Positions 4,875 through 48,491 of a DNA stretch of 64,000 bases are shown one piece after another. Below the pieces are notes generated by a model. It saw nothing but the letters and a program-made list of their open reading frames with translations. It ran no database searches and was not told where the DNA came from. Every line of letters begins with the position of its first letter. Position 1 is the first letter of the stretch. The DNA comes from Bacteroidota bacterium (GTDB lineage Bacteria > Bacteroidota > Ignavibacteria > UBA10030 > UBA6906): assembly GCA_019637975.1 (NCBI GenBank), contig JAHBUR010000021.1:17355-81354 (forward strand), read 5' to 3'. A program made the position numbers and the translations under genes.

Positions 4875-4875
4875 C

Positions 4876-5960: not shown

Positions 5961-7445
5961 CTACAACTTCCCGGCACCAGGCCCGGGTGATTGGCGGGAT
6001 AGCAGTCTTGCAATGCGCGCAAGCTCGGAGGGATCGAAGAATTTCATGAGATAGATGAGAACAACGAACAGAATCAGCAACGCTGATTTCCATAGTATAG
6101 CAAACGAATCAGCCCTGACAAACTGGGCAAGAAGATACACTGCCAAAGATGCGACGGCAATCTTGAACAGCCGGGAATACTCGTATCGAATCGGGTAGAT
6201 TGTTTGAACGATAACATACAGAACCACAGACATGCTTGCATAACTTGCCAAAGTCGCAACGGCTGCCCCCGTGATTCCCAGCGGCGGAATGAGAAGATAG
6301 TTCACTAGCACATTCATTGCCGCCCCTGTGAAGGCAACTATGGAGAGCTTTCTCGTCTGCTTCTCAATGTACACTCCTGCCCCGATAGTATTTGAGATGC
6401 CAAGAAACACATACGCAAGCAACACTATCGGAACGATGCCGAGCCCTCCCCAATATCGCGGATCGATGATCGACTTGCCGTCGCAGATGGGCACGGTAAC
6501 AATATCACTGATGAAGAAACTCAGAACAAGAAAACTCCCCATCATCACGAGAAAGAAATATGTTAACACGCGGGAGAACATCTGTTTTGCGTCCGCTTCA
6601 TTCGCATTCGACATGAAGAACGGACGCCATGCAAAATCAAACATCGATACAATCAGCATCATGAATATGCCAAGCCGGTAGTTTGCCTGATAGATGCCCA
6701 CAGTTGCCATATCCGTTAACGATTCAAGAATAGGGCGGTCGATAACTTGCACCATCATTGTTGCCAAATATGCTGGTACTGTTGGGATACTGAATCTCAA
6801 CAACGCCTTGTACAGAGGAGCGTTCCACTCGGCGGAAATGTTGCGGAGAATTTCGGGAAGAAGCAACAGCAATGTCATTGCCGATGCAATCAGGTTGCTC
6901 AGGAAGATTCCTTCGACTCCCCATCTGAAGACCAGCAAGAATATCAGGTTGCAGACAACGGTAAGGACGATGTTCAACAACTTCAGCGAAGCAAACAGTT
7001 TCGCCTTTCTTTCCATCCGCAAAGACGCAAACGGAATGATCGCCAACGCGTCGAGAAGGAGAATACACCCGCTGTAGGTAATAATGGAAGCTTGATCAAG
7101 CGGCACACTGATCAACGTCGCGATCGATCCTCCTCCCCCAACAATACAAAGGGAAAACACAAGCGAGGTCGCCGCCACAGAGAAAAACGGAACGCTGAAC
7201 ACCTGTTTCTTCGTCCCGATTTCCAACGAAGCAGTGTATCGCATGAACGCCGACTCCATACCATAACCATAGAGGATGTTCAAGAAGGCGATGTAGGCAT
7301 AGACGGTTGCTACGATGCCGAGATCAGACGGCGGCAGGATGTTGGTGTAGAACGGTGTGAGAAGGAAGGTAAGTAAACGCCCGACAACCGTGCTGACACC
7401 ATAGATGGCCGTGTCGGTGCCGAGACTTTTGATTTTGTCAAACAT
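5961..7445 (-). CDS. Polysaccharide flippase (Wzx/MVF superfamily)
   Basis: A 494-residue membrane protein with 12-14 predicted hydrophobic segments, of the polysaccharide-transporter (MOP/MVF) superfamily. Such proteins flip undecaprenyl-linked sugars across the inner membrane. The N-terminus (YGVSTVVGRLLTFLLTPFYT) is the usual opening of the first helix, and the C-terminal half has the polysaccharide synthesis domain. It starts 15 bp after the nadC stop. The start codon is buried in a 9-bp hairpin (7440-7462), which may couple its translation to that of nadC. This is one of three flippase genes in the window. Its distance from the glycosyltransferases makes its substrate uncertain. Confidence 0.88.
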   Translation of the reverse strand: MFDKIKSLGTDTAIYGVSTVVGRLLTFLLTPFYTNILPPSDLGIVATVYAYIAFLNILYGYGMESAFMRYTASLEIGTKKQVFSVPFFSVAATSLVFSLCIVGGGGSIATLISVPLDQASIITYSGCILLLDALAIIPFASLRMERKAKLFASLKLLNIVLTVVCNLIFLLVFRWGVEGIFLSNLIASAMTLLLLLPEILRNISAEWNAPLYKALLRFSIPTVPAYLATMMVQVIDRPILESLTDMATVGIYQANYRLGIFMMLIVSMFDFAWRPFFMSNANEADAKQMFSRVLTYFFLVMMGSFLVLSFFISDIVTVPICDGKSIIDPRYWGGLGIVPIVLLAYVFLGISNTIGAGVYIEKQTRKLSIVAFTGAAMNVLVNYLLIPPLGITGAAVATLASYASMSVVLYVIVQTIYPIRYEYSRLFKIAVASLAVYLLAQFVRADSFAILWKSALLILFVVLIYLMKFFDPSELARIARLLSRQSPGPGAGKL

Positions 7446-7462
7446 GTCTACCGGACATGTTT
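7440..7462 (-). promoter_or_regulatory. Hairpin covering the flippase start codon at the nadC junction
   Basis: Perfect 9-bp inverted repeat AAACATGTC / GACATGTTT with a 5-nt loop. On the minus-strand RNA the 5' arm begins within the nadC stop codon (7463-7461), and the 3' arm contains the flippase AUG (7445-7443). A ribosome finishing nadC would melt the hairpin. Confidence 0.4.
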
Positions 7463-8327
7463 ATTGCACATGATGGAGTTCAAGCGAAATGTCGAGGCCC
7501 TTCACGGAATGCGTCAATGCCCCAACGGAAATGAAATCAACGCCTGTTTCTGCAATGGATCGTACCGTTTGCAGCGTTACGCCGCCGCTGGCTTCCACTT
7601 CCACTTTGCGGGCGACAAGTTCAACCGCCTTTTGCATCTGGTCGAGAGGGAAGTTGTCGAGCATAATGCGTTGAATGCCTGTGCATTGAAGGGCCTCACG
7701 CACTTCATCCATTTTCTTCGTCTCGACCTCGATCGCCACATCTATTCCCTCGGCTTGAAGATATGTTCTGCACATCTCAACGGCTTTCGTGATGCCGCCA
7801 GCGGCCACAATATGATTGTCCTTGATCAGAACCATGTCATCAAGTCCGAATCGATGATTGAATCCACCGCCTAGTCGTACCGCCCACTTGTCGAGTACGC
7901 GCAGGCCGGGCGCAGTCTTTCTTGTATCGATAACTTTTGCGCGTGTTCCCGCCACAGCATGAACATATTTGTGCGTGGTCGTTGCAATGCCGCTCATCCG
8001 CTGGAGAAAATTGAGCGCCGTCCGCTCGCCCTTTAGGATGCTTCTTGTACTGCCGTCGATTGCCGCAATGGATTGCCCTTTTCGTGCAATCTCTCCGTCC
8101 GGAACGAGTTGTTGCAGTGTAATGCTGTGGTCACAATATTGGAACACGAGTGCTGCAACTTCAAGACCTGCCACAATTCCATCCTCCTTGCACAGCAAAT
8201 CTGCACGGCCCAATTGCGATTCGGAGATAATCGCATCGCTTGTCACATCCCCCATGCCGATATCTTCCATCAGCGCAAGCTCAATGAGCCTGCTTACCCG
8301 GCTGTCATGCAGAATGCTGTGTGTCAT
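7461..8327 (-). CDS. nadC: Nicotinate-nucleotide pyrophosphorylase (carboxylating)
   Basis: A 288-residue quinolinate phosphoribosyltransferase, which makes nicotinate mononucleotide from quinolinate and PRPP in NAD synthesis. Family marks are MEDIGMGDVTSD at the N-terminus, NFLQRMSGIAT in the centre, TRKTAPGLRVLDKWAV, and the lysine-containing LIKDNHI. The C-terminal barrel carries VEVETKK, IMLDNF and EASGGV, as expected. GGAG lies upstream of the ATG at 8327. The gene follows a YbgC-type thioesterase by 16 bp. No nadA or nadB is in the window. Confidence 0.97.
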   Translation of the reverse strand: MTHSILHDSRVSRLIELALMEDIGMGDVTSDAIISESQLGRADLLCKEDGIVAGLEVAALVFQYCDHSITLQQLVPDGEIARKGQSIAAIDGSTRSILKGERTALNFLQRMSGIATTTHKYVHAVAGTRAKVIDTRKTAPGLRVLDKWAVRLGGGFNHRFGLDDMVLIKDNHIVAAGGITKAVEMCRTYLQAEGIDVAIEVETKKMDEVREALQCTGIQRIMLDNFPLDQMQKAVELVARKVEVEASGGVTLQTVRSIAETGVDFISVGALTHSVKGLDISLELHHVQ

Positions 8328-8343
8328 CGCCTCTCCGTTTCGT

Positions 8344-8763
8344 TCATAGTTGCTCCTTCATTTTCTTCTCCAGCGTTTCAAGAAACCGGCCCGGAGCGCG
8401 AGTCGGCTTGCCTGTTTCTGCGTTCATGAACGTGTGTATGGTATAGCCCTCGGCAAGCAGGTCGGGTTCACCTTCTTTGTAGACTTCGTATTCAATTCTG
8501 ATTCGTGCGACAGGCATTTCACGGAACAATGTCACAACGTGCAGAAGATCGTCATAACGTGCTGCACGTTTGTATCGTGCGTGCGCCTCGATAACAGGAA
8601 GGAACAATCCCATTGCTTCAATACTGGAATACGAGAGCCCGATGTCACGCAATAGATCTGAGCGGCCCTGTTCGAAGTACTCAAAGTATTTTCCGTAATA
8701 CACAAACTTCATCTGATCCGTATCGGCGTATCGGACACGAATATCGGTAACGTGCTTGATCAT
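8344..8763 (-). CDS. YbgC/FadM-type acyl-CoA thioesterase
   Basis: A 139-residue hotdog-fold thioesterase of the 4HBT family, which hydrolyses acyl-CoA thioesters. The N-terminal active-site region is typical: VRYADTDQMKFVYYGKYFEYFEQGRSDLLR, here read in pieces, with the catalytic Asp in the ADTDQM turn and the conserved YYGKYFEYFE helix. The later IEYEVYKE strand and the length fit YbgC. It sits in a run with a methyltransferase, accA and nadC, so a link to lipid metabolism is plausible but not shown. Confidence 0.9.
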   Translation of the reverse strand: MIKHVTDIRVRYADTDQMKFVYYGKYFEYFEQGRSDLLRDIGLSYSSIEAMGLFLPVIEAHARYKRAARYDDLLHVVTLFREMPVARIRIEYEVYKEGEPDLLAEGYTIHTFMNAETGKPTRAPGRFLETLEKKMKEQL

Positions 8764-8784
8764 GTTCCACCGGCGCTTCGCATT

Positions 8785-9780
8785 TCATTTACGAGATTGG
8801 CGTTTCCGACACACGGCATAGATGTAGTCGCTGTCGATTTCGTTGCGACGTAACAGCTCATCTTCTATATCGAAGATGAATTTCAACATGCTGACTGTCT
8901 CTCTATCCTGCTCGACGAAATGATGGGCAATATTTTTGAAAACAAGAGGGAGAAGAGTTCCCCCGTACGGTTTCCATTCCACAATCTCAAGCATCTCCCG
9001 AAGCAGCTGTTGAATCAACGCAGACTCGGCTGCTTCCGAGGGATCGTTGAGATACATACTGAGACGTCCGGGCCTATGAACCTTCCGTTTGATATTTCCG
9101 GAAGGCAAGGTTGTCCGATACCGTTCAGGAATCACCGCCAGAATACCGTTTACGATCTCCAACTGACGATCGGACCATTGAAACCGTGACGGCCCGACAA
9201 ACTCGTTGACAATCACATAGCCCGCCGGTTTCAGCCATCGATTCACCGATTCGAGAATCCGGCGCACGGGCTTGAAGTGGTGTAACGAACTCTCCAGCAA
9301 CACGACGTCGTACGATTCCGGCGCAATGTTGAGGTCAAAAACATCGGCAACATGAAAGTGAGCGCACTCTCCGAATCCGCTTTCCGCCGCTTCAGCACGA
9401 GCGTGGGCAATTCTTTCCTGCGAAATATCATACGCATCAAGGCACTTAATTGATCCGGTAGCCAGCCACTTTAATTCTCTTCCCCCTCCTCCACACCCGA
9501 GCGACAGCGCGTTGAGTCCGCCTCTACCTGTAAAGTACTTGTTCGCGACATACACATACGGCTCAGTGTCACGATCTCCTGTAATCAGCAGATTGCAGCG
9601 CTGCTCTACCGCCGGAATATCCCACCAATGCGCTGGCACGTTGTTCGTGTGGCTCCACGAGTGCCGGACACGGTTCTTCTCCGAACGGAATACCTTCCGG
9701 AGCACGCCGGCGTTTCCCCGTTCACGAATCTTCTCGAACAAAACGACGAGATCATGAGGGTTGATGAGATTGCTAAACAC
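8785..9780 (-). CDS. Class I SAM-dependent methyltransferase
   Basis: A 331-residue protein with a central methyltransferase domain. Motif I is LSLGCGGGGRE (about residue 93), the acidic loop is DAYDISQERI, and the post-motif is YDVVLLESSLHHF, then LKPAGYVIVNEFVG. The N-terminal 80 residues and the C-terminal 130 residues are not specific. The target could be a sugar or a small molecule; nothing in the sequence decides. The start is a GTG at 9780 with no clear ribosome site, so the first residues are uncertain. It lies between accA (66 bp upstream) and the thioesterase in the same direction. Confidence 0.85.
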   Translation of the reverse strand: MFSNLINPHDLVVLFEKIRERGNAGVLRKVFRSEKNRVRHSWSHTNNVPAHWWDIPAVEQRCNLLITGDRDTEPYVYVANKYFTGRGGLNALSLGCGGGGRELKWLATGSIKCLDAYDISQERIAHARAEAAESGFGECAHFHVADVFDLNIAPESYDVVLLESSLHHFKPVRRILESVNRWLKPAGYVIVNEFVGPSRFQWSDRQLEIVNGILAVIPERYRTTLPSGNIKRKVHRPGRLSMYLNDPSEAAESALIQQLLREMLEIVEWKPYGGTLLPLVFKNIAHHFVEQDRETVSMLKFIFDIEDELLRRNEIDSDYIYAVCRKRQSRK

Positions 9781-9846: not shown

Positions 9847-10797
9847 CTATCCCGAATACTCCCCCATCTTCGAGAATTTCTCGATCCGTTTCTCGATGAG
9901 TTTTTCGATTTTGATTTTCGAAAGATGTTTCAACTCGGCAAGCAGTTGTCCCTTCAGGATTTCCGCCGCCTTTGCATGATCACGATGCGCTCCGCCGAGT
10001 GGTTCAGGAACAATCTCATCAATGATGCCTTGCTTTTTCAAATCCGGCGCAGTGAGCTGCAACGCTTCAGCGGCCTGTTCCTTATAGTCCCAACTTCGCC
10101 ATAAAATGCTTGAGCACGATTCGGGAGAAATGACGGAATACCAGGCATTTTCCAACATCAGAATTCTATCTCCAACGCCAATGCCCAACGCACCACCTGA
10201 AGCTCCTTCACCGATGATGACTATAACAATCGGCACTTTAAGATGTGACATCTCATAGAGATTGCGGGCAATAGCCTCCGCCTGCCCCCTCTCCTCGGCC
10301 TCAAGTCCCGGAAAGGCACCCGGCGTATCGAGCAGGGTGATGACGGGTTTCCTGAATTTTTCTGCAAGCTTCATCAGCCGCAGGGCTTTCCGGTAGCCCT
10401 CCGGATTAGGCATGCCGAAGTTGCGGTAGAGATTTGATTTTGTGTCCCTTCCCTTCTGATGCCCGATCATCATCACACTGTGCCCGTCAAGCTTGGCGAA
10501 TCCCCCGACAATGGCTTTGTCATCTTTGAACGTCCGGTCTCCATGGAGTTCGAGAAAATCCGTCGTCATGAGGTTGATGTAATCGAGCGTGTAAGGTCGT
10601 TCCGGGTGTCGGGCAAGCTGCACTTTTTGCCAACGGGTCAAGCCGCTGAAGATGGTTCGCTGGAGATGATTGACGCGCTTCTCAATCTTTCCGATTTCCT
10701 GCGCAATATCGGGATTGTCGGCGTACTTGCGCATTTCCTCGATTTTCTGTTCGAGCTCGAAAATCGGTTTTTCAAATTCGAGAGTAACCTTTGCCAT
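9847..10797 (-). CDS. accA: Acetyl-CoA carboxylase carboxyltransferase subunit alpha
   Basis: A 316-residue alpha subunit of the carboxyltransferase that forms malonyl-CoA for fatty acid synthesis. Typical marks are the N-terminal coiled coil ([16 protein letters not shown]), [22 protein letters not shown] in pieces, LDTPGAFPG, and the oxyanion region [20 protein letters not shown] lies 6 nt before the ATG. It also overlaps the stop of the upstream glycosyltransferase fusion (TAGGAG), so accA is probably translated by coupling to a polysaccharide gene. The partner accD is not in the window. Confidence 0.97.
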
Positions 10798-10806
10798 GCC
10801 GTTCTC

Positions 10807-12798
10807 CTATTTCTGCAGCCGAAGGAGGAATGACTTTGCCATGATTTCCAGATCCAAGATCAATGATTGGTTCTTAGCGTAATACAATTTGTAGCGCTCG
10901 ATTTCGTCGGTTCCAAGGTCCTCGCGCTGATTGATTTGCACAAGTCCTGTAAGACCCTTGGGCCCCAGCAACGGGCGGCCGCCGGTGGGAAGGGGTTCGT
11001 CCACATCGGAAGGTGGCCTTCCGACCAGACTTATTCTACCCAAAAACACATCCGGAAGCAAGCGGACGTTTTGCGCAAATGTACCGCGTTTTGCCCGTAC
11101 GATCCTCACCAACGGATACAGCAGCAGAAGTCCGACACCTGACACGACAACGTCAAAGACGCGCTTTGACAGTCTGTTGCCGGGTCTGTGAATGTTGTAT
11201 TCGATCTCGACAAACGGCAGAGTCCCGAGGTCATCGATTTGCGTTTTGCCGATAATGGATTCGAGACTGTTGGGAACGAGACGGAAGTTCACGCTACGGT
11301 CGTTGCTGCGGGCAATAACCGAAAGAATGTCGGTGTACGCGATACCGTCAGTTGAGAAAATCACTTCACTTACTCTCCGCTCCGCGATCACCTTGCCGAC
11401 ATTGTCGATGCTCCCGATGATCTCAACGCCTGAAATTTTTTCTCCCAAATTCTTCCGATCGAGCGCGATGAAACCGACAACGTCGTAACCTTCAACAACG
11501 AGGGCGCGAAGTCTTCTGAGCAGTTCCTGTGCCGAGGGCCCCGTTCCGACAATTACCGTTGGACGGCCAAAGAGACTTTTTCTCGGGCTGCCGTGCTTTC
11601 CTGTTAGCATCTCAAACAGCAACCTCCATCCGGGCACAACGAGCAGATTGATGAAACCCGAAATGAGGACAACAGCACGGCTGAATGCAAAATCTTTGAA
11701 GAAGAAAACAGTCGCCGAGACAATGGTGTAGCCGATAATAACTGCCAGCGCGGCGCGTGCAACGGAATGGCGGCGGGTCGTATACACGCCGAGAAAATAC
11801 ATCGACAGAATTACTATAAGCGCCGGTATCGTCCACACAATCGGGTATGCGTAATCCGGGAATTTCAACAGGTACCCGAAGTACAGATACTCACTCGCAA
11901 TCAGCGCAGTATCGATGAGAACGAAATCCATCAGCGCAATCAACAACGGGCGGCTTGCCTTGGTGAACATCGCGAGAGATGCCCGCACAACAATGCCGAT
12001 CGTCAGGAACACTTCAACGAACACCGAACTGCTGAGATGCTTCTCGACAAACAACTGCATTGCCTGGTAGAACGTCCGGATTTCGTCTATCTCGCTTCGT
12101 CGCGTACTTTCGCCTTTGAAATGGATGATCTTTGTCGAGTGAACATAGTACACTTTGTATCCCGATTGCGAGACTCGGTAGCACCAATCCAAGTCCTCTC
12201 CGTACATGAAAAACGTCTCATCCAATCCTCCAACCTTCTCATACGTTTCTCGACGCAAAAACATGAATGAGCCGCTGATTGCATCCACTTCGTAGGTCTC
12301 ATCTTCATTCAAGTATGTGAGATTGTACTTGCCGAACAGTTTGGATTTCGGGAACAGTGCGCTCAGTCCGAAGATTTTGGTGAATGCAACCCACGGTGTT
12401 GGAAAGCTGCGGCGGCAGGGAAGCTGAAACGAGCCGTCGGAGTTCAGGATTTTGCATCCGGCAAGTCCGGCATCGGGATTCCCGTCAAAGAACTTCGTCA
12501 TCACCGAGAATGTGTCCTCCTGGACAATCGTGTCGGGATTCAGAAGCAGAAAGTAGCGCCCTTTTGCTTTCTTCAATGCCGCATTGTTTGCCTTCGCAAA
12601 ACCGACGTTTGCTTTGTTTTCGATGAGCTGAACGGCAGGGAACTTTTCCCTCACCATCTCCACACTCCCGTCATCGGAGGCGTTGTCAACCACAAATACT
12701 TCGCCCTCCACACCTTCCATCGCACGATACACAGAGGCTAGCGCGTTCTCGAGAAACTGGCGGACGTTATAATTGACAATGATGACCGAAAGGTCCAT
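10807..12798 (-). CDS. GT2 glycosyltransferase fused to a membrane/Rossmann region and a shortened phosphoglycosyltransferase domain
   Basis: A 663-residue fusion. Residues 1 to about 250 form a rhamnosyltransferase-like GT2 domain (SVIIVNYN, VVDNASDDGS, LLLNPDT, MYGEDLDW). Then come four hydrophobic segments, a Rossmann-like domain (VIVGTGPSAQELLRRL) and a C-terminal piece like the WbaP/WcaJ family (KRVFDVVVSGVG ... GRISLVGRPP ... GLTGLVQINQRE). That last piece is about 119 residues, against about 190 in the intact domain encoded at 14671-17154. It lacks the stretch that normally holds the catalytic Asp-Glu. It may therefore bind but not transfer. The ATG at 12798 is chosen because the GT2 fold starts there; a GTG at 12852 would overlap the upstream gene. 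Confidence 0.88.
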   Translation of the reverse strand: MDLSVIIVNYNVRQFLENALASVYRAMEGVEGEVFVVDNASDDGSVEMVREKFPAVQLIENKANVGFAKANNAALKKAKGRYFLLLNPDTIVQEDTFSVMTKFFDGNPDAGLAGCKILNSDGSFQLPCRRSFPTPWVAFTKIFGLSALFPKSKLFGKYNLTYLNEDETYEVDAISGSFMFLRRETYEKVGGLDETFFMYGEDLDWCYRVSQSGYKVYYVHSTKIIHFKGESTRRSEIDEIRTFYQAMQLFVEKHLSSSVFVEVFLTIGIVVRASLAMFTKASRPLLIALMDFVLIDTALIASEYLYFGYLLKFPDYAYPIVWTIPALIVILSMYFLGVYTTRRHSVARAALAVIIGYTIVSATVFFFKDFAFSRAVVLISGFINLLVVPGWRLLFEMLTGKHGSPRKSLFGRPTVIVGTGPSAQELLRRLRALVVEGYDVVGFIALDRKNLGEKISGVEIIGSIDNVGKVIAERRVSEVIFSTDGIAYTDILSVIARSNDRSVNFRLVPNSLESIIGKTQIDDLGTLPFVEIEYNIHRPGNRLSKRVFDVVVSGVGLLLLYPLVRIVRAKRGTFAQNVRLLPDVFLGRISLVGRPPSDVDEPLPTGGRPLLGPKGLTGLVQINQREDLGTDEIERYKLYYAKNQSLILDLEIMAKSFLLRLQK

Positions 12799-12812
12799 TT
12801 CAGGAAAGACGA

Positions 12813-13577
12813 TTACAAGCGATTGAGGATGCTGCGAATTCTTAACTTCCACAGCATGAATACGGCTTCGTAGACGATGCTTCTCGACATCTTGGAAACC
12901 CCGGAGCGCCGGTCAAGGAAGATGATGGGAATCTCGACAAGGCGATAGCCTTTCTTCCACACTTTGAAGCTGATCTCGATCTGAAATGCGTAGCCGTTGG
13001 ACTTGATTTTGTCGAGGTCGATCGTTTTAAGTGCTGAAACCCTGTAGCATTTGAAGCCGCCCGTGGCGTCACGAACCGGAAGGCCGGTTATGATTTGGGT
13101 GTACACGTTTGCCGAATAGCTCAGCAGAAGGCGGTTCATGGGCCAGTTGAGCACTCGAACACCGTTGATGTATCGTGAACCAATCACCAGGTCGTAGTCC
13201 TTGATCTTCTCCAGGAATCTGGGGAGATCGTTCGGATCGTGCGAGAAATCGGCGTCCATCTCAAATACGAAATCGAATCCGTTCTGAATTGCATATTTGA
13301 ATCCCGCCACATACGCGGTTCCCAATCCTTGCTTCCCGGCCCGCTCAAGTATGCTGACTTGCGGATTGGTAGTCATCATGTCTTTGACCAATTTGCCCGT
13401 TCCATCCGGAGAGCCGTCGTCAACAACCAGAATGTTGATGTTCGGTGCCTGACGAAGCACGGCAGGAATCAACCGCGGGATGTTCTCGGCCTCGTTGTAT
13501 GTCGGAATGATAACGAGAACCTTCTCCGCGATTGTTTGCGGTGCCTCAGCGGGTTCGGTAGAATTCCTTGATTGCAT
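12813..13577 (-). CDS. DPM1-like polyprenol monophosphomannose synthase (GT2)
   Basis: A 254-residue GT2 enzyme like dolichyl/polyprenyl-phosphate mannosyltransferase, which charges a polyprenyl phosphate with a hexose. Visible marks are VIIPTYNEAENI, VVDDGSPDGTG, the metal-binding EMDADFSHDP (about residue 109), IGSRYI, ATGGFKCYR and the C-terminal FLDRRSGVSKMS. There are no C-terminal membrane spans, so it is the soluble DPM1 type. It overlaps the upstream DegT gene by 32 bp and ends 14 bp before the GT2 fusion. The sugar could be mannose or glucose. Confidence 0.9.
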   Translation of the reverse strand: MQSRNSTEPAEAPQTIAEKVLVIIPTYNEAENIPRLIPAVLRQAPNINILVVDDGSPDGTGKLVKDMMTTNPQVSILERAGKQGLGTAYVAGFKYAIQNGFDFVFEMDADFSHDPNDLPRFLEKIKDYDLVIGSRYINGVRVLNWPMNRLLLSYSANVYTQIITGLPVRDATGGFKCYRVSALKTIDLDKIKSNGYAFQIEISFKVWKKGYRLVEIPIIFLDRRSGVSKMSRSIVYEAVFMLWKLRIRSILNRL

Positions 13578-14652
13578 CCGTAATATAAACGAGTTGTTCT
13601 TCAGTCAGTTCTGTGTGGATCGGAAGAGAAAGAACCTCGTCCGCCGCGTACTCGGTAACGGGGAAAGCGCCGCTCTGTTTTCCGGCAACGGCAAAGGCTT
13701 TTTGCAGATGCAGCGGAACAGGATAGTAGATGGCGTGTGGGATTCCCTTCTGCTTCAAATAGTCTGCAAGTTCATTTCTCTTCGGAGCCCGAAGTGTGTA
13801 TTGATGAAAAATATGCTCACAGTCCGGCGCAACAAATGGAATTGTAACGGGCGTTTCCTTCAAAAGCTCGTTGTACGTTTCCGCTGCCGCCCGACGGGCA
13901 GCATTCCAGTTGTCAAGATGGTTCAACTTGACGGAGAGGATCACGGCTTGCAGCGTGTCGAGCCGGCTGTTCACGCCGAGAGCTTCGTGGTAGTAGCGGA
14001 CCTTCGAGCCATGCGCGCATATCATTCTCACCTTCTCGCCGAGGGCGACATCGTTGGTGACAACCATTCCCGCATCACCGAATGCGCCGAGATTTTTACT
14101 GGGGAAATAGCTAATGCACGACAGATCACCGAATGTGCAGACCTTCCTGCCTTTGTACGAGGCACCGAGAGCCTGGGCAGAATCTTCAATCACCTTCAGC
14201 CCATGTTTGCGGGCAATCTCCATAATCGGATCCATGTCAGCCGATTGTCCGTACAAATGCACGGGGATGATCGCTTTCGTCTTCGACGTGATAACAGATT
14301 CGATTTGTGAGGGATTGATATTAAACGTCTTCGGGTCGATATCAACATACACAGGTTTTGCGCCGAGCAGCACAATGGTCTCCGTTGTCGCAACAAACGT
14401 AAATGGCGTCGTAATCACTTCGTCTCCGGGGCCGATGTCCAGCGCCATCATCGCCACCTGAAGCGCATCAGTGCCCGACGCACACCCGACGGCATATTTG
14501 ACGCCAAGATATCCGGCGATCTGACACTCGAACTCTCCTACTTCTTTTCCGAGAATAAACTGGCCTGAATCCAGAATCTTATGAATTGCCGCATCAACAT
14601 CGGGTTTGATTTTCTGATATTGGCCGACAACATCTACCATGTGAAGTTTCAT
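13546..14652 (-). CDS. DegT/DnrJ/EryC1/StrS sugar aminotransferase
   Basis: A 368-residue PLP enzyme that aminates a nucleotide-linked keto-sugar. The fold-type I marks are GCASGTDALQVAM, ITTPFTFVATTE, IPVHLYGQSADM, EDSAQALGA and the PLP-lysine motif YFPSKNLGAFGDAG. The later region has NSRLDTLQAVIL and YPVPLHLQ. The ATG at 14652 has AAAGGA six bases upstream; a second ATG at 14658 sits too close to that site. It is a paralogue of the gene at 32209-33312. The two probably serve different amino sugars or two copies of the same pathway. Confidence 0.93.
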   Translation of the reverse strand: MKLHMVDVVGQYQKIKPDVDAAIHKILDSGQFILGKEVGEFECQIAGYLGVKYAVGCASGTDALQVAMMALDIGPGDEVITTPFTFVATTETIVLLGAKPVYVDIDPKTFNINPSQIESVITSKTKAIIPVHLYGQSADMDPIMEIARKHGLKVIEDSAQALGASYKGRKVCTFGDLSCISYFPSKNLGAFGDAGMVVTNDVALGEKVRMICAHGSKVRYYHEALGVNSRLDTLQAVILSVKLNHLDNWNAARRAAAETYNELLKETPVTIPFVAPDCEHIFHQYTLRAPKRNELADYLKQKGIPHAIYYPVPLHLQKAFAVAGKQSGAFPVTEYAADEVLSLPIHTELTEEQLVYITDAIKEFYRTR

Positions 14653-14670
14653 GCACATTCCTTTTCAGAG

Positions 14671-17154
14671 TTAGTGCGTCCCTCGTCCGCTCAGCGCAAC
14701 GATGATTGTCCTGAGGATGATCTTCAGATCAAGCGTGAGAGACATGTTTTCAAGATAATACAAATCGTACTTAATTTTTTGTTTTACATCGTCAAGCGAT
14801 GCGTCGTAGCGATGCTTCACCTGTGCCCAGCCGGTAATGCCCGGGCGAACAAGGAGTCTGCGTGTGTAGAATGACACCTCCGCCTTCAATTGCTCCACAA
14901 AGAATGGCCTCTCGGGTCGAGGTCCAACCAGGCTCATTTCTCCCTTCAGCACATTAATGAATTGGGGAATTTCATCAAGGCGCAGTTTGCGGAGAACCCT
15001 GCCTACTCTCGTCACCCGCTTGTCGTCGCGTGCCGCCCACACGGGTCCGGTGTCCCGCTCCGCATCGTGGATCATCGAACGGAATTTGTAGAGATTGAAT
15101 AACCTCCCCTGCTTTCCAACACGTTCCTGCGCGAAGAAAATCGGACCGCGCGAATCAAGCTTGATCGCTATTCCTATCAGAATCCAGAGCGGAAGGAACG
15201 GGATAAGAACGGAAATGGCGACGATGAAGTCAATCCACCTCTTCGCGATGCGCTGCCACGTATTCAGGTTCGTCGGATACAACCGGATGAGCGGGTGGCC
15301 GATCACCTCCTCGGTTTTGAAGCCGCTGAGAACTTGCATGCTTTCCGGCGCAAGTTTCACAACGGGAACCATGCCGTTGCAATGTGCAATAATATTGAGA
15401 ATTTCCTCGCGTGAATCATATCCGGTGGCAATCAGCACTTCTTCGATGTTGTATTTCTTGACCAGTTCGGGGATTGCATCAGGGTCGCCGAGGATGGGAT
15501 ACTGTTTGAAATGTTCCTGCTTCGGCTCCTTGTCAACAACTCCTATCAGCTTGTATCGTAATCCGGGTCTGTCGGTAATCTCTTCAACAAGCTCGGCGGC
15601 AACGGGAGTTGTGCCGACGAGAAGTGTGCTGCGCTTTCTGAATCCAAGAATTTCGTGCTTTCTCTCAAAACCGACGATGAACATCCGGACGAGCACAACG
15701 ACGAATGCGATTGCAGCGCCGTACATCAAGGTTGTGATACGCCCTTCGACCGTCACGCTGCTGAAGTCAAGCGTGACGATGAAAAGAAACAGTGTGCCGA
15801 TCGCAACAGTCTTGAAAATCAGCAAGCCGTAATCAACCCGCGACACATCCCATGGAATCTCATACAATCCTGCCAGCACAAACAAGACGAGCCAAAACAG
15901 AGCAAACAGAAGCATCACCGGATTGATGAGGTAGGCCTCCAGCGGTACATAGACCGTCACAGGCACGAATCCCGAATGAAATCTGAACCAGTACGAAAAC
16001 ACAAATGCGGCAAAGATTGCCGCAATGTCCCCGCAAACGAGAACCGCTTTGTCAATCAATCGGGCAACGCTCAGAGGCTGAATCGGCGGCTTCGTTTCAT
16101 TCAGGCGGCGGCGCATTTCTTCAACGTAGCCCAACCTCCGGACACCGAAAAAGATCGATCCGAACACAACAACAAGGAGAATTGTCGAGTAGAAACTCTC
16201 CATCTGCACAAGCAGAAAGGCAACTATGCCGTTGAAGATCGAAAGCGCGTAGATGGTGACAACAGTCTGCCGGTGCGTGAGGCCAAGATCCATCAACCGG
16301 TGATGGATATGTTCTTTGTCCGGCTTGAGCGGATGCATGCCCTTGCGGAGGCGCCGGAAGAAGGCGACAGACGTGTCGACAATAGGAACGGCGAGCGTGA
16401 CGACCACTATCAGGAGTGAAAGGGGCGTCATTCCCGGCGAGGGATGCTGAAGAATCCGAAGCGAGATACACGCAAGCACGAAACCCAGGAACAAACTGCC
16501 GGTATCACCCATGAAAATCGATGCCGGATGAAAGTTGTAGCGAAGAAATCCCAGGCATGAAAAGAACAGGCTTGCTGTTACAACCATCGTGAACGCATCC
16601 TGCTCATAGGCACCAATGGCAAAGAATGTCGCCGCAACAATTGCGGAAACACCGCAGGCAAGGCCATCCAAGCCGTCGAGCAGATTTACCGCATTCGTAA
16701 CACCGATGAGCCAGAGGAATGTAATCGGAATGCCCCACATGCCCAACTGAACAGGGCCGATGAACGGAAGCGAAAGGTACTCAAGCTGAAGCCCGCTGTA
16801 CACCACAAGGCCGCTTGCGGCCGTCTGCACGATTAGTTTGCCGAGCGATCCGATGCCGTAGATGTCATCGAACACGCCGAGCACAACGATAAACAGCGTG
16901 GCAATTGCAAGAACGGGCAAAGAGATTGAAGGAACTACAAACGTCTCCGGATTCAGCAGCGACGCGGAAGTGAGCGCGGCAGCGAAGCCGGCAATGATAG
17001 CGACACCCCCAAGGCGAGGAATGAACCCCGCGTGGATTTTGCGTTCGCCGGGGTGGTCGCCAATGGAAAACCGCAACGCCAACTGTCGCACCCGCGGAGT
17101 TGTCAAGAGGACAATGAAGGCAGCAAGACTTGATATTAGGAATACCGCAAACAT
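14671..17154 (-). CDS. Fusion of a WecA/MraY-type and a WbaP-type phosphoglycosyltransferase
   Basis: An 827-residue membrane protein joining two unrelated families that both start glycan synthesis on undecaprenyl phosphate. Residues 1 to about 330 are a polytopic WecA-like enzyme: FDDIYG with Asp96-Asp97, NAVNLLDGLDG, MGDTGS (215-220) and HIHHRL (282-287). Residues from about 360 form four more helices, a Rossmann-like domain (LLVGTTPVAAELV) and a complete monotopic domain (638-827) with GPIFFAQERVG, KFRSM, the catalytic Asp727-Glu728 in RLDEIPQ, and SLVGPRPERP. Both active sites look intact. It starts 3 bp after the GT4 gene. The reading frame is continuous, so this is not an assembly join inside the ORF. 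Confidence 0.93.
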   Translation of the reverse strand: MFAVFLISSLAAFIVLLTTPRVRQLALRFSIGDHPGERKIHAGFIPRLGGVAIIAGFAAALTSASLLNPETFVVPSISLPVLAIATLFIVVLGVFDDIYGIGSLGKLIVQTAASGLVVYSGLQLEYLSLPFIGPVQLGMWGIPITFLWLIGVTNAVNLLDGLDGLACGVSAIVAATFFAIGAYEQDAFTMVVTASLFFSCLGFLRYNFHPASIFMGDTGSLFLGFVLACISLRILQHPSPGMTPLSLLIVVVTLAVPIVDTSVAFFRRLRKGMHPLKPDKEHIHHRLMDLGLTHRQTVVTIYALSIFNGIVAFLLVQMESFYSTILLVVVFGSIFFGVRRLGYVEEMRRRLNETKPPIQPLSVARLIDKAVLVCGDIAAIFAAFVFSYWFRFHSGFVPVTVYVPLEAYLINPVMLLFALFWLVLFVLAGLYEIPWDVSRVDYGLLIFKTVAIGTLFLFIVTLDFSSVTVEGRITTLMYGAAIAFVVVLVRMFIVGFERKHEILGFRKRSTLLVGTTPVAAELVEEITDRPGLRYKLIGVVDKEPKQEHFKQYPILGDPDAIPELVKKYNIEEVLIATGYDSREEILNIIAHCNGMVPVVKLAPESMQVLSGFKTEEVIGHPLIRLYPTNLNTWQRIAKRWIDFIVAISVLIPFLPLWILIGIAIKLDSRGPIFFAQERVGKQGRLFNLYKFRSMIHDAERDTGPVWAARDDKRVTRVGRVLRKLRLDEIPQFINVLKGEMSLVGPRPERPFFVEQLKAEVSFYTRRLLVRPGITGWAQVKHRYDASLDDVKQKIKYDLYYLENMSLTLDLKIILRTIIVALSGRGTH

Positions 17155-20593: not shown

Positions 20594-22006
20594 CTACGCT
20601 TTCGCTGGAAGCAAGAAACCTCTGATTTCACCGATCGTCACACAACGTAGAACCAGCAGTGATGCGAAGTAAATCAGAATGCCACTAATCAACATCAAAA
20701 ACAGATTCAAGTTCAGGCACATGATAGCTACCCCCATAATCACTCCGGCTAGCAACGGTCTCACGCTAACTTGTAGTGCATATGACCACCTTATGAACTT
20801 GCATGACAGAGCAAAATAGGTAAGCAAAACGAGCTCAGACAATAACCCCACGATCGATGGAGCAATAATTCCGAGTATTGGAATCAGGGCGATATTCCCA
20901 ACAATTGTTATCCCACCAGCCACAATAAACCCTGTGAAATAGCGACGCCGTTTCTGCGATGCAATGAGCGCATTTTCAAAGATCACCCTATACAATACAA
21001 TTGCCACGACCCAGATGGAGATCTGGAAAACTATAATGCTTTCACTAAAGTCAGATGAATAAAGATAGTTCATTATCGGAGCTCCTAGCACTGCGCCTCC
21101 AATTGCGACAGGTAAAGCCAACAAGACAAATACGCGGAAGAGGTTTTTCAGCACACCGCTAAATTCTGATGTTGACCTCTTGTATGCCGTGGCAAGAGCA
21201 GGCAGAATTGCATTGGAAGCCGCAACTACGGCAAACGCCCATAAAAACAATATGACTTTGTGAGCAGCCGAGAAGATCCCGACTTCTTCGTCGGAGACAA
21301 AGAAAGCCAGTGCGAGCATTCCAAAGTTGTAGTTAATCTGCGTGATGATAGACCCCGCCCCTAATGGAGCAGCAAGAACAAATGTACGCTTGATGCTCTG
21401 CCAATCAGTTTTTGCAAAGGACGGCTTGAACTTCACGCAATAGATGACGAGAAGAGTCCCTGCTGCAACCACAATTGCCGCAGAGTAAGATACAACTGAA
21501 TAGATCAAGTGTTCGGGTTCACGAACAAATGCAAAGACCAACCCCGCAAAAACGACGCCTTTGAGAACTCTCCCGACGCCAACATACTCCATCCGTTCAA
21601 CACCCTGAAATACCCACTCAAGCAAGACGGCAGATGGGAGCAACGATATTCCAAAGACAACGATCAAGGTTTTTACGTCAACTGGCTTTGGAAGCACAAG
21701 CGTTAGGATCAAAAGCACAAGAAACCAGCCGACAGCCAGAATAATCCTCAACAACGTTATGGTGGCAACATGCTCAGCAACTCGCCCTCTTTCTTGCGCA
21801 ACCGCTCGCGTACCATGCGTTTGTAAACCAAATTCCGAAAGATGGAGAAAGTACAGAAGAATGACTTGGGCAAATGAGAATTTCCCGAAGCCCTCAGGAC
21901 CGCTCACGCGAGCGATGTGAATAAATCCCCACAGCGTAAATACTTGGCCGACAACGCTTGACAGAAATAGCGAGAAGAAATTTCTGGCTATCTTCCTCTG
22001 AACCAA
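20594..22006 (-). CDS. wzx: Polysaccharide flippase Wzx
   Basis: A 470-residue membrane protein with 12-14 hydrophobic segments. It starts IARNFFSLFLSSVVGQ and has the family stretch RVSGPEGFGKFSFAQ and the C-terminal ILGIIAPSIVGLLSE. It probably flips the lipid-linked repeat unit made by the neighbouring transferases. The TTG at 22006 is chosen because GGGGAG lies 6 nt upstream and the codon follows the polymerase TGA by 2 bp. An upstream start at 22075 would overlap the polymerase by 67 bp. Confidence 0.88.
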   Translation of the reverse strand: MVQRKIARNFFSLFLSSVVGQVFTLWGFIHIARVSGPEGFGKFSFAQVILLYFLHLSEFGLQTHGTRAVAQERGRVAEHVATITLLRIILAVGWFLVLLILTLVLPKPVDVKTLIVVFGISLLPSAVLLEWVFQGVERMEYVGVGRVLKGVVFAGLVFAFVREPEHLIYSVVSYSAAIVVAAGTLLVIYCVKFKPSFAKTDWQSIKRTFVLAAPLGAGSIITQINYNFGMLALAFFVSDEEVGIFSAAHKVILFLWAFAVVAASNAILPALATAYKRSTSEFSGVLKNLFRVFVLLALPVAIGGAVLGAPIMNYLYSSDFSESIIVFQISIWVVAIVLYRVIFENALIASQKRRRYFTGFIVAGGITIVGNIALIPILGIIAPSIVGLLSELVLLTYFALSCKFIRWSYALQVSVRPLLAGVIMGVAIMCLNLNLFLMLISGILIYFASLLVLRCVTIGEIRGFLLPAKA

Positions 22007-22008
22007 CG

Positions 22009-23283
22009 TCAACTCCCCACACTTGTGGTAGATGGTGTTCCCATCGATGGCACCATGGTTAACCGCAGGATCCAATACATTGCGAGCAGGTTATACTGAA
22101 ACCATAGAAAGGAGATCGGAAAAACGAAAAACGAAATGAGCATTACGAACACCATGACACTGTACGCGGTAACGCTCTTGATGGACGGTGCGATCCGCAT
22201 TTTGTAGTACAGTGTTCCACTAACAAAACCCAATATCAAAGGAACGACAGCGAGGCCGATAACTCCAAAGTCTCGGTAGAATGGCCAAAATGCTGTATAT
22301 GTATTATAATAGCTAGTGATGTATGGTGTTCTATCAATATTGAAATACTGAGCAGACCATCCTTCCAAGCCCGTTATCGAGACGATGAAATCAAAAGTGA
22401 AATAGCCAAACGTGTGATGATCGAGGAGATGCACCGATCGTGCGAAGTTCTCCATATTGGTTACAATATACATGTACGGCTCTGTAATGAACGCAAAATC
22501 GATGGGGATTGTCATCTTCGAGACCCAATATGTGTAGCTTGCAACAAGACTACCGAGCCTGAGCGACATAATCCAGTAGAAGAATCCGGTGACGGCCATA
22601 AGTAACGGCACAACGGTGCGAACTCTAATATGGTGAGTGGCATAATATAGAAACGTCAGGCACATAACTGCTGCCATGATAACCTGAAATCGCTGAAGCA
22701 GAAGGAAATACGATCCCATGGTAAGCACAGAAAGCACAATCAAGACTGCTTTTCTGCGCTTTTGGTCTGGTACAAGGAGAGTATAAAGCAGCGTGAAGAA
22801 TACGATGAAACCGGCAGAATAGAGCAGCACTGTAAAACCGATTACGTTGAACTCAACCCGAGAGGTCTTTGTCCCTACAACAAAAATGGGAAGCCAACCC
22901 TTTGCAAGGAATATCACCAAGTACGAAATTGCATACGCGGCAACAGCAATACAGATCAACAAGAACAATAAGCGCTCCCGAACTTTCTCCCTCCGCAGGG
23001 ATTGGCGCATCTCGGAAATCGGCACGAGGCGCTTGTCGAGATTCAAAACAAAAGCACCAAAAATTCCTATAAGGAATGCACCAACCCCCGTAAGCAGCAA
23101 AACCCAGCCTTCGATTCTCCATTCGTGCTGTAATGCGCTAAACTTGAGTTCAGTAAGGCCAATTGAAAGGCACCAAATGAAACCAAACAATCTCCCGGGA
23201 GACAGGATGTCGCTCCCGCGCTTAAGAAACGAAACGAGGATACCAGCACAGACTGCAAAACATACTACCGATACCCAACTCAT
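22009..23283 (-). CDS. wzy: O-antigen/repeat-unit polymerase (Wzy-like)
   Basis: A membrane protein of about 424 residues with 11-12 hydrophobic segments. A long periplasmic loop (about residues 245-330 in this start) contains ENFARSVHLLDHH, YFTFDFIVS and the aromatic TPYITSYYNTYTAFWPFYRDFG, which is the usual active region of OAP-type polymerases. The FYRDFGVIGLAVVPL end is typical. Sequence similarity in this family is always low, so the call rests on topology and position between Wzz and Wzx. The start is unsure: the ATG at 23283 begins at the first helix, and the ATG at 23334 overlaps wzz by 41 bp. Confidence 0.8.
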   Translation of the reverse strand: MSWVSVVCFAVCAGILVSFLKRGSDILSPGRLFGFIWCLSIGLTELKFSALQHEWRIEGWVLLLTGVGAFLIGIFGAFVLNLDKRLVPISEMRQSLRREKVRERLLFLLICIAVAAYAISYLVIFLAKGWLPIFVVGTKTSRVEFNVIGFTVLLYSAGFIVFFTLLYTLLVPDQKRRKAVLIVLSVLTMGSYFLLLQRFQVIMAAVMCLTFLYYATHHIRVRTVVPLLMAVTGFFYWIMSLRLGSLVASYTYWVSKMTIPIDFAFITEPYMYIVTNMENFARSVHLLDHHTFGYFTFDFIVSITGLEGWSAQYFNIDRTPYITSYYNTYTAFWPFYRDFGVIGLAVVPLILGFVSGTLYYKMRIAPSIKSVTAYSVMVFVMLISFFVFPISFLWFQYNLLAMYWILRLTMVPSMGTPSTTSVGS

Positions 23284-23293
23284 GACATGTAAT

Positions 23294-24523
23294 TCATGCT
23301 CTGTTCCGCCAAAACCGTAAGCCAAACCAGTCATGCACTAATAGCCGGATCGTGCCATTATAAGATGTACCGTAATGATTCCGTAAGCGGTTGTTCAACT
23401 CCATCAGAAACACCACCAAAACGGAAACCAATGCTGACGATACCAGCGCTATCAACCCCCACAAACTCGCCTTCGGCTTCGATTTCCTTTCCGCCGGTCC
23501 CGCTGTATCCAACACAATCACCGATGGGGTTTGGCGCCGTTCCTCTACTTTCGCCTGCTCGTACAGTGGCGTGATGAACTGGAGAATCTTGTACTGAATC
23601 TCCACATCACGATACCGGCGCAGGTACTCCATTCCCAAATCGGGGACTTTGCTGAACGGGACAAATACTTTCATGTCCGGTCCAACGCCAACTCCCGACG
23701 AACTCATCTGTGCCAGTTTGTTCCTTAGTTCATCAATTTCAATCTGTCCCGCTACAACAACCGGGTTGTCCTTCGATTGCGTGCGGCGAAGAACGCCCAC
23801 CTGAACTTCCTTCAACGCAAGTTGTGCCGTGATCTCCGCTGCTGCTTTGATGGATGCCTCTGTCTGTTCCGGCATGGCGATGATGCCGTACCGCTTCTGA
23901 AACATGCGAAGCGAATCCTCCGCAGCGGCAAGGTCCACAAGATTCTTGTTGTAGCGCTCTTCGATAAACTTCCTGTTCCCCCTGGCATTCTCGGATTGGA
24001 GAACTGTATTCGTCCGGTTCAACAACTCCACGAAGTAATTCGCCATGTCGGCTGCCCGCTGGGGATCCTTGTCATATACAGTGATCGTGATGTTCCCTTC
24101 CGGCTCAACGGAAAACTCGGTGTTACCGAGAAGTTCCTTCGTGGTTTTCTCCATCCTATAATTCGTGATGTCGTACACACTGTCGAGTTTGAATTTTTCT
24201 ATCACAGCGCTCAGAACTGTCCCGCTCTTCAAAATGGCCATGTAGCGATCGGCTTCGGGGTTCGACCCGAGAAGAGCTCGGGCAGGAGAAAGATTCTTCG
24301 CCAACGAGGAAATCCCCTCCAATCCGAACAAATCCGCCTTTTCTGCAGGAAACACGGAGGAGGTGGACTTGTACCACTTCGGCATAAGCAACGTCACTAC
24401 CGTCGTTATGACGGTCACAGACAGGACAAACCGCGAGATGAACTTCCGGTACTTCGTGACTATCGTAAGAAACTCGATAATCGTGGATGCAGGTGTCTCG
24501 TGTTGTGATGGGTTCTCTGCCAT
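23294..24523 (-). CDS. wzz: Chain-length determinant protein (Wzz/PCP) without kinase domain
   Basis: A 409-residue inner-membrane polysaccharide co-polymerase that sets chain length. One helix lies at about residues 28-48 (ISRFVLSVTVITTVVTLLMP) and one near 350-375 (ASLWGLIALVSSALVSVLVV). Between them is a long periplasmic region with coiled-coil character and the N-terminal Wzz motif MPKWYKSTSSVFP. The conserved PxxP-like end (AGPAERKSKPKAS) lies before the second helix. There is no cytoplasmic kinase domain, unlike the Wzc at 46075-48408. It follows Wza by 5 bp. Confidence 0.92.
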   Translation of the reverse strand: MAENPSQHETPASTIIEFLTIVTKYRKFISRFVLSVTVITTVVTLLMPKWYKSTSSVFPAEKADLFGLEGISSLAKNLSPARALLGSNPEADRYMAILKSGTVLSAVIEKFKLDSVYDITNYRMEKTTKELLGNTEFSVEPEGNITITVYDKDPQRAADMANYFVELLNRTNTVLQSENARGNRKFIEERYNKNLVDLAAAEDSLRMFQKRYGIIAMPEQTEASIKAAAEITAQLALKEVQVGVLRRTQSKDNPVVVAGQIEIDELRNKLAQMSSSGVGVGPDMKVFVPFSKVPDLGMEYLRRYRDVEIQYKILQFITPLYEQAKVEERRQTPSVIVLDTAGPAERKSKPKASLWGLIALVSSALVSVLVVFLMELNNRLRNHYGTSYNGTIRLLVHDWFGLRFWRNRA

Positions 24524-24528
24524 GTCGC

Positions 24529-26205
24529 TCAGTTTCTTGAAAGATTATGAATCAACAGCGCCACGGTTGCGGCCGTTCCGACAATCCCCGCAACCTGCGC
24601 CCACACATTCAAGTGGTAGGCGAACGGGTACGTACGCTCTTTGGGCACCCAGATGTAGTCGCCATCTTCGATGGTGGTCTCATCGGGGTCAAGCCACACA
24701 CGCGTGCTGCCTTTGATGATTTTCACGTCACCTTCCCGCGCATCCTTCGCGTAACCATCGGCTTTCCGGATATAGTAACGGTAGTCTGCTCCTTCGATGT
24801 ATTCAGCATGACCGGGTGAAAGGACTTGCCCGAACACATAAACGGTTTTGGTTCTTTTGGGAACGAAAATCCTATCGTGGTTTCTCAGTGTAACATCCTG
24901 CGTCGAATCGCCTGACACAAACAACTTGTGGAAATCCACCGACACCAGTTCACCCTTGAGACGAAGCGCAGTCTCTGTAAAATAGTACGATGTATCCTGG
25001 ACGCCGAGATTGCTGCGCGAACTGAGAAGCTGCTCCATCGCGATCTCCTCTGCCGAGCTTTGCGGAGAAATGCGGGACCGCGTCAACGTCGCCCCTTTGA
25101 TATTAGCCTCCGACGAAAAACCACCGGCCGCCCGTATCACCTCCGAGAGTTTTGTCGAGTTCTCCGTCAGCGGGTACTGACCCGGATAGGCAATTTCGCC
25201 CTGTATGTCGACGATATAGGCTTTTCGCGGGTCGGGAATATTCTTGATCACAAGCCTGTCGCCGGGTCTGAGCGCTATATTCGCCTCCCGGCCTGATACA
25301 ATGGCTGCGGGATTTACGAAGACTTTTTCCATCGCAATTGCATCGGGGGAGAGACGGGTCAGAATACCGTTCGTCGAGTCGGCCTCGCGACGGAATCCGA
25401 ATCCCATCGAAATGAGATCGGAAAGACTGTCGCCGGATACAAATTCGAAATTACCCGGCTGACGAACTCCACCCGTAACACCTATCGCAATATCTCTGCG
25501 TGCAGGCACGAACACCTGATCTCCTTCCCGCAGATAGGGATTGTGTATATTATCGCCCGTTGCCCTGTACTTGATAAGATCGGCGCGCAACCGTCTTCCA
25601 TTCTTTCGCTGAATGATGATGTTGCGCACAGAAGAACTTCTCCGGATATACATGGCCTCGCGAAACACGCCGGCATCGGTAACCGTTCGGGGCGGGTCGT
25701 TGGCGATATCGATGAGATTGTCGACCCGTTGCAGTGAACTGATTTCGTGCTTCCCTTCGAAGAACACATCGCCGGTCACCTGCACAACAATTCTGCGCGC
25801 CGAAACAAGCGACAATGTTACTTCTGCCGACGGGTATTTACGTACGACCAGTGCAGACACGCTCTTCTTTACGGTTTCAAGCGTTTGTTCCTTCACATCA
25901 ACAACGCCGACGTTCGGAATCAGGAGGGTTCCTTCGGGTGTGACTGTCAATTGATGAGCAACGGGCATGCTCGACCAGATATTGAGTGCCAGCAGGTCGC
26001 CGGGTCCGACAAAGTACTCGGCAGGATCCACCGGCGCATCCATCGGGACTTGTTTGCCGCCGGCATCTTTTGCATCTGATGCAATTTCAGGGCGCATCTT
26101 CAACAAATCCGGCAGAGAAATGCCCGACGAGACCTGGCCGTGGACCGGACAGCTCAACACAAGCATCACTGCAATCACAAAAAACTTTGTACACGCACCG
26201 TTCAT
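24529..26205 (-). CDS. wza: Polysaccharide export protein Wza-like, several SLBB domains
   Basis: A 558-residue export protein with a signal peptide (about 1-23, ending VHGQ). The polysaccharide export (PES) domain lies at about 60-150 (YFVGPGDLLALNIW, TVTPEGTLLIPNVG). At least three SLBB-type repeats follow (GVTGGVRQPGNFEF, DIQGEIAYPGQYPL, YVFGQVLSPGHAEY). A C-terminal hydrophobic segment (AQVAGIVGTAATVALLIH) may anchor it. No lipoprotein Cys is seen after the signal peptide, which differs from E. coli Wza. Its ATG overlaps the rfbB stop as ATGA. Confidence 0.93.
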   Translation of the reverse strand: MNGACTKFFVIAVMLVLSCPVHGQVSSGISLPDLLKMRPEIASDAKDAGGKQVPMDAPVDPAEYFVGPGDLLALNIWSSMPVAHQLTVTPEGTLLIPNVGVVDVKEQTLETVKKSVSALVVRKYPSAEVTLSLVSARRIVVQVTGDVFFEGKHEISSLQRVDNLIDIANDPPRTVTDAGVFREAMYIRRSSSVRNIIIQRKNGRRLRADLIKYRATGDNIHNPYLREGDQVFVPARRDIAIGVTGGVRQPGNFEFVSGDSLSDLISMGFGFRREADSTNGILTRLSPDAIAMEKVFVNPAAIVSGREANIALRPGDRLVIKNIPDPRKAYIVDIQGEIAYPGQYPLTENSTKLSEVIRAAGGFSSEANIKGATLTRSRISPQSSAEEIAMEQLLSSRSNLGVQDTSYYFTETALRLKGELVSVDFHKLFVSGDSTQDVTLRNHDRIFVPKRTKTVYVFGQVLSPGHAEYIEGADYRYYIRKADGYAKDAREGDVKIIKGSTRVWLDPDETTIEDGDYIWVPKERTYPFAYHLNVWAQVAGIVGTAATVALLIHNLSRN

Positions 26206-28410: not shown

Positions 28411-28448
28411 CCAGCCATGATTTTCACAGAACACACCGGCGCGGGCGA

Positions 28449-43599: not shown

Positions 43600-43607
43600 G
43601 CTCGCGG

Positions 43608-48408: not shown

Positions 48409-48439
48409 GGAATGGGTAGATACAGTCAAGATGTGTTGA

Positions 48440-48465
48440 GATGCTTCTGCGCTTAGCGCAGCATC
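48440..48465 (-). promoter_or_regulatory. Hairpin in the leader of the Wzc gene
   Basis: On the minus strand GATGCT pairs with AGCATC and an inner GCGCT pairs with AGCGC (11 pairs, one 3-nt bulge). It lies 32 bp before the ATG. The direct repeat TCAAGATG borders it on the plus strand at 48426-48433 and 48464-48471. It could affect translation or transcript stability. Confidence 0.45.
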
Positions 48466-48491
48466 AAGATGCGAAAAAAAGGAGGGACAAA

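Follow-up and report, generated by a model that had tools for sequence, protein, structure and literature searches.

Two superfamilies of phosphoglycosyltransferases joined in one chain: a putative bifunctional starter enzyme in the Ignavibacteria

We describe here a gene on the reverse strand of contig JAHBUR010000021.1 (assembly GCA_019637975.1, a Bacteroidota bacterium of the Ignavibacteria), located within the 64,000-nucleotide stretch that was analysed and that we call the window. As judged from its sequence, the 827-residue product is a WecA-type polytopic phosphoglycosyltransferase (PGT) followed in the same chain by a complete large monotopic PGT. We propose, with a probability of roughly 0.6, that this protein is a bifunctional starter enzyme, which would transfer two different sugar phosphates to undecaprenyl phosphate (Und-P) at a single site in the inner membrane; both of its heads are likely active.

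Architecture and constraint of the fusion protein

The interval 14671..17154 carries many stops on the forward strand, and the coding frame lies on the reverse strand (Table 1). Three Pfam domains exceed their cut-offs in the product, namely Glycos_transf_4 (PF00953; residues 81-233, 139.6 bits against 27), CoA_binding_3 (PF13727; residues 449-593, 44.1 bits against 25) and Bac_transf (PF02397; residues 638-821, 230.1 bits against 27). The N-terminal half also contains all four of the motifs DD, NxxDGxDG, GDxGS and HxHH, the motifs of polytopic PGTs. An earlier, sequence-only reading of this DNA had described a full WecA/MraY-type N-terminal half and a full WbaP-type C-terminal half with Asp727-Glu728; the PF00953 score together with the motifs at the residues it had quoted bears out the former, and the PF02397 score together with the presence of the dyad the latter. 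The middle module of four transmembrane (TM) helices and PF13727 had been overlooked, and it is this module that makes the C-terminal half a complete large monotopic PGT, with the corresponding layout of four-TM bundle, PF13727 and Bac_transf. Residues 376-825 exceed the cut-off of the NCBIfam model EPS_sugtrans (TIGR03025; 419.1 bits against 295.55), and stay below those of WcaJ, the nearest named subfamily (TIGR03023; 380.6 against 410.75), and of WbaP (TIGR03022; 234.6 against 403). The model nearest to the N-terminal half, ECA_wecA (TIGR02380), scored well below its cut-off (147.8 against 326.05 bits).

The structure model of the window protein comprises 11 TM helices followed by another four, with 32 lysines and arginines inside and three outside, and locates the four motifs of the WecA half at the inner ends of helices or in loops; both active sites are predicted to lie on the cytoplasmic side. 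The predicted fold matches MraY, WbaP and PglC, the matches of the N-terminal half being MraY and DPAGT1, with no WecA structure among them. Chance motif matches were ruled out by the profile scores and the fold.

The sequence-only reading had called for a search for other proteins with both domain families in the same order, and such proteins were found. Of the 217 proteins listed or used as queries, 205 are 730 residues or longer and align from end to end; these represent full-length protein clusters, the named ones from Ignavibacteria/Bacteroidota, Calditrichota and Marinimicrobia. Furthermore, the fusion occurs in eight of a set of 60 genomes, many of them incomplete drafts, that were chosen around the window's own genome and count it in (G000, G001, G005, G027, G035, G040, G043 and, with a broken frame, G007). 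All 205 fusions agree at 14 of the 15 positions checked in the WecA half. Where the catalytic dyad is present (91 fusions), the other motifs of the monotopic half hardly vary either; in the re-entrant helix, K638, D642 and P655 are found in 91/91 and R639 in 90/91. Strong purifying selection acts on both halves: between the window and G001, the ratio of nonsynonymous to synonymous substitution rates (dN/dS) was 0.039 for the WecA half, 0.027 for the four-TM and PF13727 module and 0.017 for the monotopic PGT domain.

Two proposed starter activities and the loss of the dyad in a sister branch

Members of both PGT families convert Und-P and a uridine diphosphate (UDP)-sugar into an undecaprenyl diphosphate (Und-PP)-linked sugar and uridine monophosphate (UMP), the WecA type by a direct, metal-dependent reaction and the monotopic type through a covalent intermediate on an aspartate. 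In the window protein, the WecA half would use UDP-N-acetylglucosamine or a related UDP-N-acetylhexosamine in the direct, metal-dependent reaction, and the C-terminal half would use a UDP-hexose, forming the covalent intermediate on Asp727. Since both reactions consume Und-P and yield Und-PP-sugar, the heads would run in parallel and not sequentially on one lipid. The protein would thereby initiate two lipid-linked glycans, or two types of repeat unit, and the Wzx/Wzy polymer of the locus is probably among them. Like its counterpart in Salmonella WbaP, the PF13727 domain between the heads would bind uridine nucleotides. Both reactions release UMP, which would act as a common brake. We picture a dimer held by PF13727 that would combine two starter activities under one UMP brake. 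A neighbouring protein with a family 2 glycosyltransferase (GT2) and its own PF13727 could join through that domain, adding a further sugar. The passages on WbaP in PMC10942596 attribute most inter-chain contacts to PF13727, stabilised by UMP, UDP and uridine triphosphate, and report inhibition of the enzyme by UMP with an apparent half-maximal inhibitory concentration of 4.1 µM.

The sequence-only reading had suggested two glycans, or two sugars, started from one complex. This is partly borne out for the window protein, in which both active sites are whole, under constraint and predicted to lie on the cytoplasmic face of the membrane. Several points weigh against a bifunctional enzyme. With the dyad gone in more than half of the fusions (see below), the family does not need two active heads, and the ECA_wecA and WcaJ scores under the curated cut-offs leave the proposed substrates as guesses. 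The fusion is no precondition for two glycans, because the window's genome encodes further monotopic PGTs, and nothing in the window pointed to two polymers needing two primers from this gene. Finally, a second starter is not essential in the order, as 33 of the 60 genomes, G012 included, have no WecA-type match (their other PF00953 matches being of MraY length), many of these genomes being incomplete drafts.

The Asp-Glu dyad is intact in 91 of the 205 fusions and replaced in 114, mostly by Tyr-Lys, while the WecA-half sites stay invariant, a loss that is newly described here. The eight dyad-less fusions put in trees form one clade, a sister branch that we call Caldithrix-like and that was encountered as proteins only; the two Calditrichota genomes with a fusion, out of nine, both bear the dyad. 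A PglC fold is still predicted for the dyad-less fusions. One of them, P0218 (829 residues), has Tyr-Lys with the neighbouring loop whole and is likely an intermediate toward the others. One half inactive in all homologues, the outcome that the sequence-only reading had named as fatal to its proposal, was not found, although this one branch comes close to it. The monotopic head of the sister branch is probably a pseudoenzyme, and its retained predicted shape may indicate a control part.

In the dyad-less branch it seems unavoidable that a single head works. For the window protein, the same explanation, in which the other head (the monotopic or the WecA half) regulates its partner or acts as a scaffold for it, appears unlikely: the dyad is intact in all 63 listed members of the window's own clade, and no part of the chain is better conserved than the monotopic PGT domain (75% mean pairwise identity, dN/dS 0.017). 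We tentatively raise the possibility, less likely than not, that the two heads communicate through the shared PF13727 and that the Caldithrix-like monotopic head is a conserved pseudoenzyme, in which Asp-Glu gave way to Tyr-Lys and the adjacent loop was then lost, gating the WecA head. If true, this branch would hold the first PGT pseudoenzyme, with one PGT superfamily turned regulator of the other; no paper on a PGT pseudoenzyme was found in the literature searched.

Replacement of a plain monotopic PGT at a conserved locus

Stand-alone large monotopic PGTs scoring at least 326 bits to the fusion C-terminal half were designated class I. Setting aside the eight fusion genomes and G012, a class-I gene occurs in 47 of 51 genomes, and the 21 put in the tree fall together. 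As for the other four, the PGT of G033 is nested within the clade of the fusions, a piece of 304 bits at a contig end is ambiguous in G059, and no protein of G014 or G056 reaches the threshold. None of the eight fusion genomes contains a class-I stand-alone gene; seven have a further large monotopic PGT, assigned in trees to class LgII, and G040 has no further match among those listed.

The GT2/PF13727 gene and the class-I gene or fusion lie on one contig in 53 of the 58 genomes for which both were listed (G059 counted with its ambiguous piece) and on separate contigs in the remaining five. All 53 one-contig pairs are on the same strand with the GT2/PF13727 gene downstream, at 726-4449 bases (median 1941), the seven one-contig fusions, G012 included, showing gaps of 870-1999. 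The order fusion, DegT, GT2, GT2/PF13727 is kept in G001, G035 and G040, and the loci of G027 and G043 have the same order minus a matching DegT. The locus continues to accA in G001, G027, G040 and G043, the contig of G035 ending earlier. Because the fusion stands next to the conserved GT2/PF13727 gene where relatives keep a plain PGT, gene content and order argue that it takes the place of the stand-alone large monotopic PGT at a locus conserved across the order. In the window, accA (acetyl-CoA carboxylase alpha; 9847-10797, reverse strand) likewise follows directly after the GT2/PF13727 gene.

That the locus is conserved with a plain monotopic PGT means that the fusion may serve the same product, and one Wzx-Wzy-Wzz-Wza set is found on the same strand, three genes upstream of the fusion. 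Both heads might hence serve one glycan: a given repeat unit could be started with either sugar, or the second head could merely raise the locus's share of Und-P. We consider this distinctly improbable, since a repeat-unit pathway usually begins with a single defined sugar and the families of the two halves mostly use different sugars.

The GT2/PF13727 partner has no DE between its flanking motifs in 120 of 120 members (P0122 and 119 of 120 listed, one 492-residue member having been dropped). The stretch between these motifs is 38-64 residues long, whereas the 91 fusions with the dyad have 100 residues there, and the regions of K563-R564, VGxP and GLTGLVQ are kept. A loose pattern gave four matches to a dyad, all beyond the SLVGRP motif, and a stricter count gave 0/120. 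The locus thus has a further conserved monotopic PGT domain that lacks the catalytic segment with the dyad. Together with the dyad-less fusion branch, this suggests that the monotopic PGT fold has been kept for a non-catalytic job.

In G004, at the same locus, a separate gene for WecA plus PF13727 (L054) lies upstream of a plain large monotopic PGT (6920-8881 and 4275-5771). This arrangement, which was not seen in the 15 other genomes with WecA plus PF13727 proteins, could precede a fusion.

Elsewhere in the window, a second, plain large monotopic PGT (30401-31870, reverse strand) lies beside another polysaccharide gene set, with a Wzz/kinase-like gene (46075-48507) and an O-antigen-ligase/Wzy-like gene (42214-43620). 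Between sugar genes, at 27916-28434 (reverse strand), there is a possible REP-associated tyrosine transposase (NF047646, 71.9 bits, below the cut-off of 80).

Table 1. Features of the fusion gene and of neighbouring genes in the window.
Feature	Position	Strand	Remarks
Whole fusion gene	14671..17154	-	827 aa (amino acids), P0001; WecA-type polytopic PGT, four-TM/PF13727 module, monotopic PGT
WecA/MraY-type half	16105..17154	-	Residues 1-350; 11 predicted TM helices
Asp96-Asp97	16864..16869	-	Invariant in 205/205 fusions
NLLDGLDG	16663..16686	-	Residues 157-164; N157, D160, D163 invariant in 205/205
MGDTGS	16495..16512	-	Residues 215-220; D217 invariant in 205/205
HIHHRL	16294..16311	-	Residues 282-287; H282, H284, H285 invariant in 205/205
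Linker	16069..16104	-	Residues 351-362; model confidence low, predicted cytoplasmic
Four-TM bundle of large monotopic PGT	15655..16068	-	Residues 363-500; WbaP 8t53_A alignment spans 364-822
PF13727 domain (Rossmann-like)	15277..15654	-	Residues ~501-626
Predicted re-entrant membrane helix	15154..15261	-	Residues 632-667; structure model
Bac_transf, monotopic PGT catalytic domain	14692..15243	-	Residues 638-821
Catalytic dyad Asp727-Glu728	14971..14976	-	Aligns with LDE of two solved WbaP chains
DegT/DnrJ aminotransferase	13546..14658	-	Next downstream gene
GT2 glycosyltransferase	12813..13577	-	
GT2, PF13727 and shortened dyad-less monotopic PGT domain	10807..12852	-	Locus partner across the order; with TM helices
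Wzx-type flippase	20594..22075	-	
Wzy-type repeat-unit polymerase	22009..23334	-	TIGR04370, 115.3 bits, cut-off 40
Wzz-like chain-length protein	23294..24523	-	Just under Pfam cut-offs
Wza-like export protein	24529..26205	-	Poly_export and SLBB

Occurrence, descent and known relatives

Although the window's genome is a draft in 68 contigs and the fusion frame of G007 is broken in two, a misassembly or missed stop joining two genes, the artefact that the sequence-only reading had feared, is refuted beyond reasonable doubt by independent occurrences, the architecture recurring in seven further genomes (that of G007 broken) and 205 protein clusters from several phyla, with purifying selection acting on all three parts of the chain. 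In G007, a draft genome, the gene (L087, 1023-3441) breaks into two frames close to the N-terminal end, through sequencing error or decay. A fusion relative, P0066 (687 residues), is no longer homologous beyond about residue 600, where a Ser/Arg-rich tail takes over, through a frame break or decay. G012 has a C-terminal piece at a contig start (65% identity). A survey of 395 genomes of the phylum, in which the two best candidates per genome were scored, found the fusion in five among the matches listed, all five in the window's order; the lowest listed matches scored far below the fusions.

The fusion and a separate WecA-type protein were never found together in the 60 genomes. In the eight fusion genomes the sole other PF00953 match is of MraY length; in the window's genome, which has no WecA-type gene besides the fusion, this single other gene is MraY (398.9 bits, cut-off 192.05). 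WecA with a PF13727-like module and without Bac_transf is present in 16 of the 60 genomes (the copy of G048 being cut by a contig end), and G016, G020 and G044 have short PF00953 pieces of uncertain assignment.

In the C-half tree, the 36 sampled fusion C-halves group together (support 98, with one mislabelled row, L086), a single stand-alone protein, L017 of G033, being nested among them; holding the 36 together without L017 was weakly rejected in the corrected tree (p-AU 0.032). This position points to one loss of the WecA half, probably in the L017 line. Repeated assembly of the fusion was considered and set aside on the grouping of these C-halves; the WecA-half tree, with its backbone unresolved, is compatible with one or several joinings and does not tell. 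In that tree, 15 of the 16 WecA plus PF13727 proteins form a clade of their own (support 100). The idea that these proteins are decayed fusions with a remnant was rejected, as none of the 16 gave a BLAST match to the PGT domain (E 1e-6) and their tails are unlike.

O'Toole, Imperiali and Allen reportedly described monotopic-polytopic PGT fusions in the abstract of a 2021 PNAS paper (doi 10.1073/pnas.2018289118), so fusions of this type are no novelty; we know of no measured activity for any member. The literature searched gave no description of this fusion family, its dyad-less branch or its replacement of a plain PGT at a conserved locus. The two PGT superfamilies meet one and the same chemical task by unrelated folds and are rivals for one scarce lipid, and a natural chain with both makes lipid competition and a shared UMP brake testable in one purified protein.

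With respect to known systems, the N-terminal half resembles WecA, MraY and DPAGT1 in fold and in all four motifs, whereas plain members have nothing like the C-terminal half. The relevant passage of PMC9860679 gives plain polytopic PGTs 10-11 TM helices, and the passages of PMC10942596 on bifunctional monotopic PGTs describe other functional domains and not a WecA-type fusion. The WecA plus PF13727 proteins of the order (L053-L068, about 640-720 residues, 16 genomes) share the WecA half and, after it, TM helices with a module like PF13727, but have no BLAST match to Bac_transf and end in unlike tails. Salmonella WbaP (PDB 8t53) is alike in the four-TM bundle, PF13727, the re-entrant helix and the Asp-Glu catalytic domain; it has no WecA half, whereas the window protein carries 350 residues of a second PGT ahead of this common plan.
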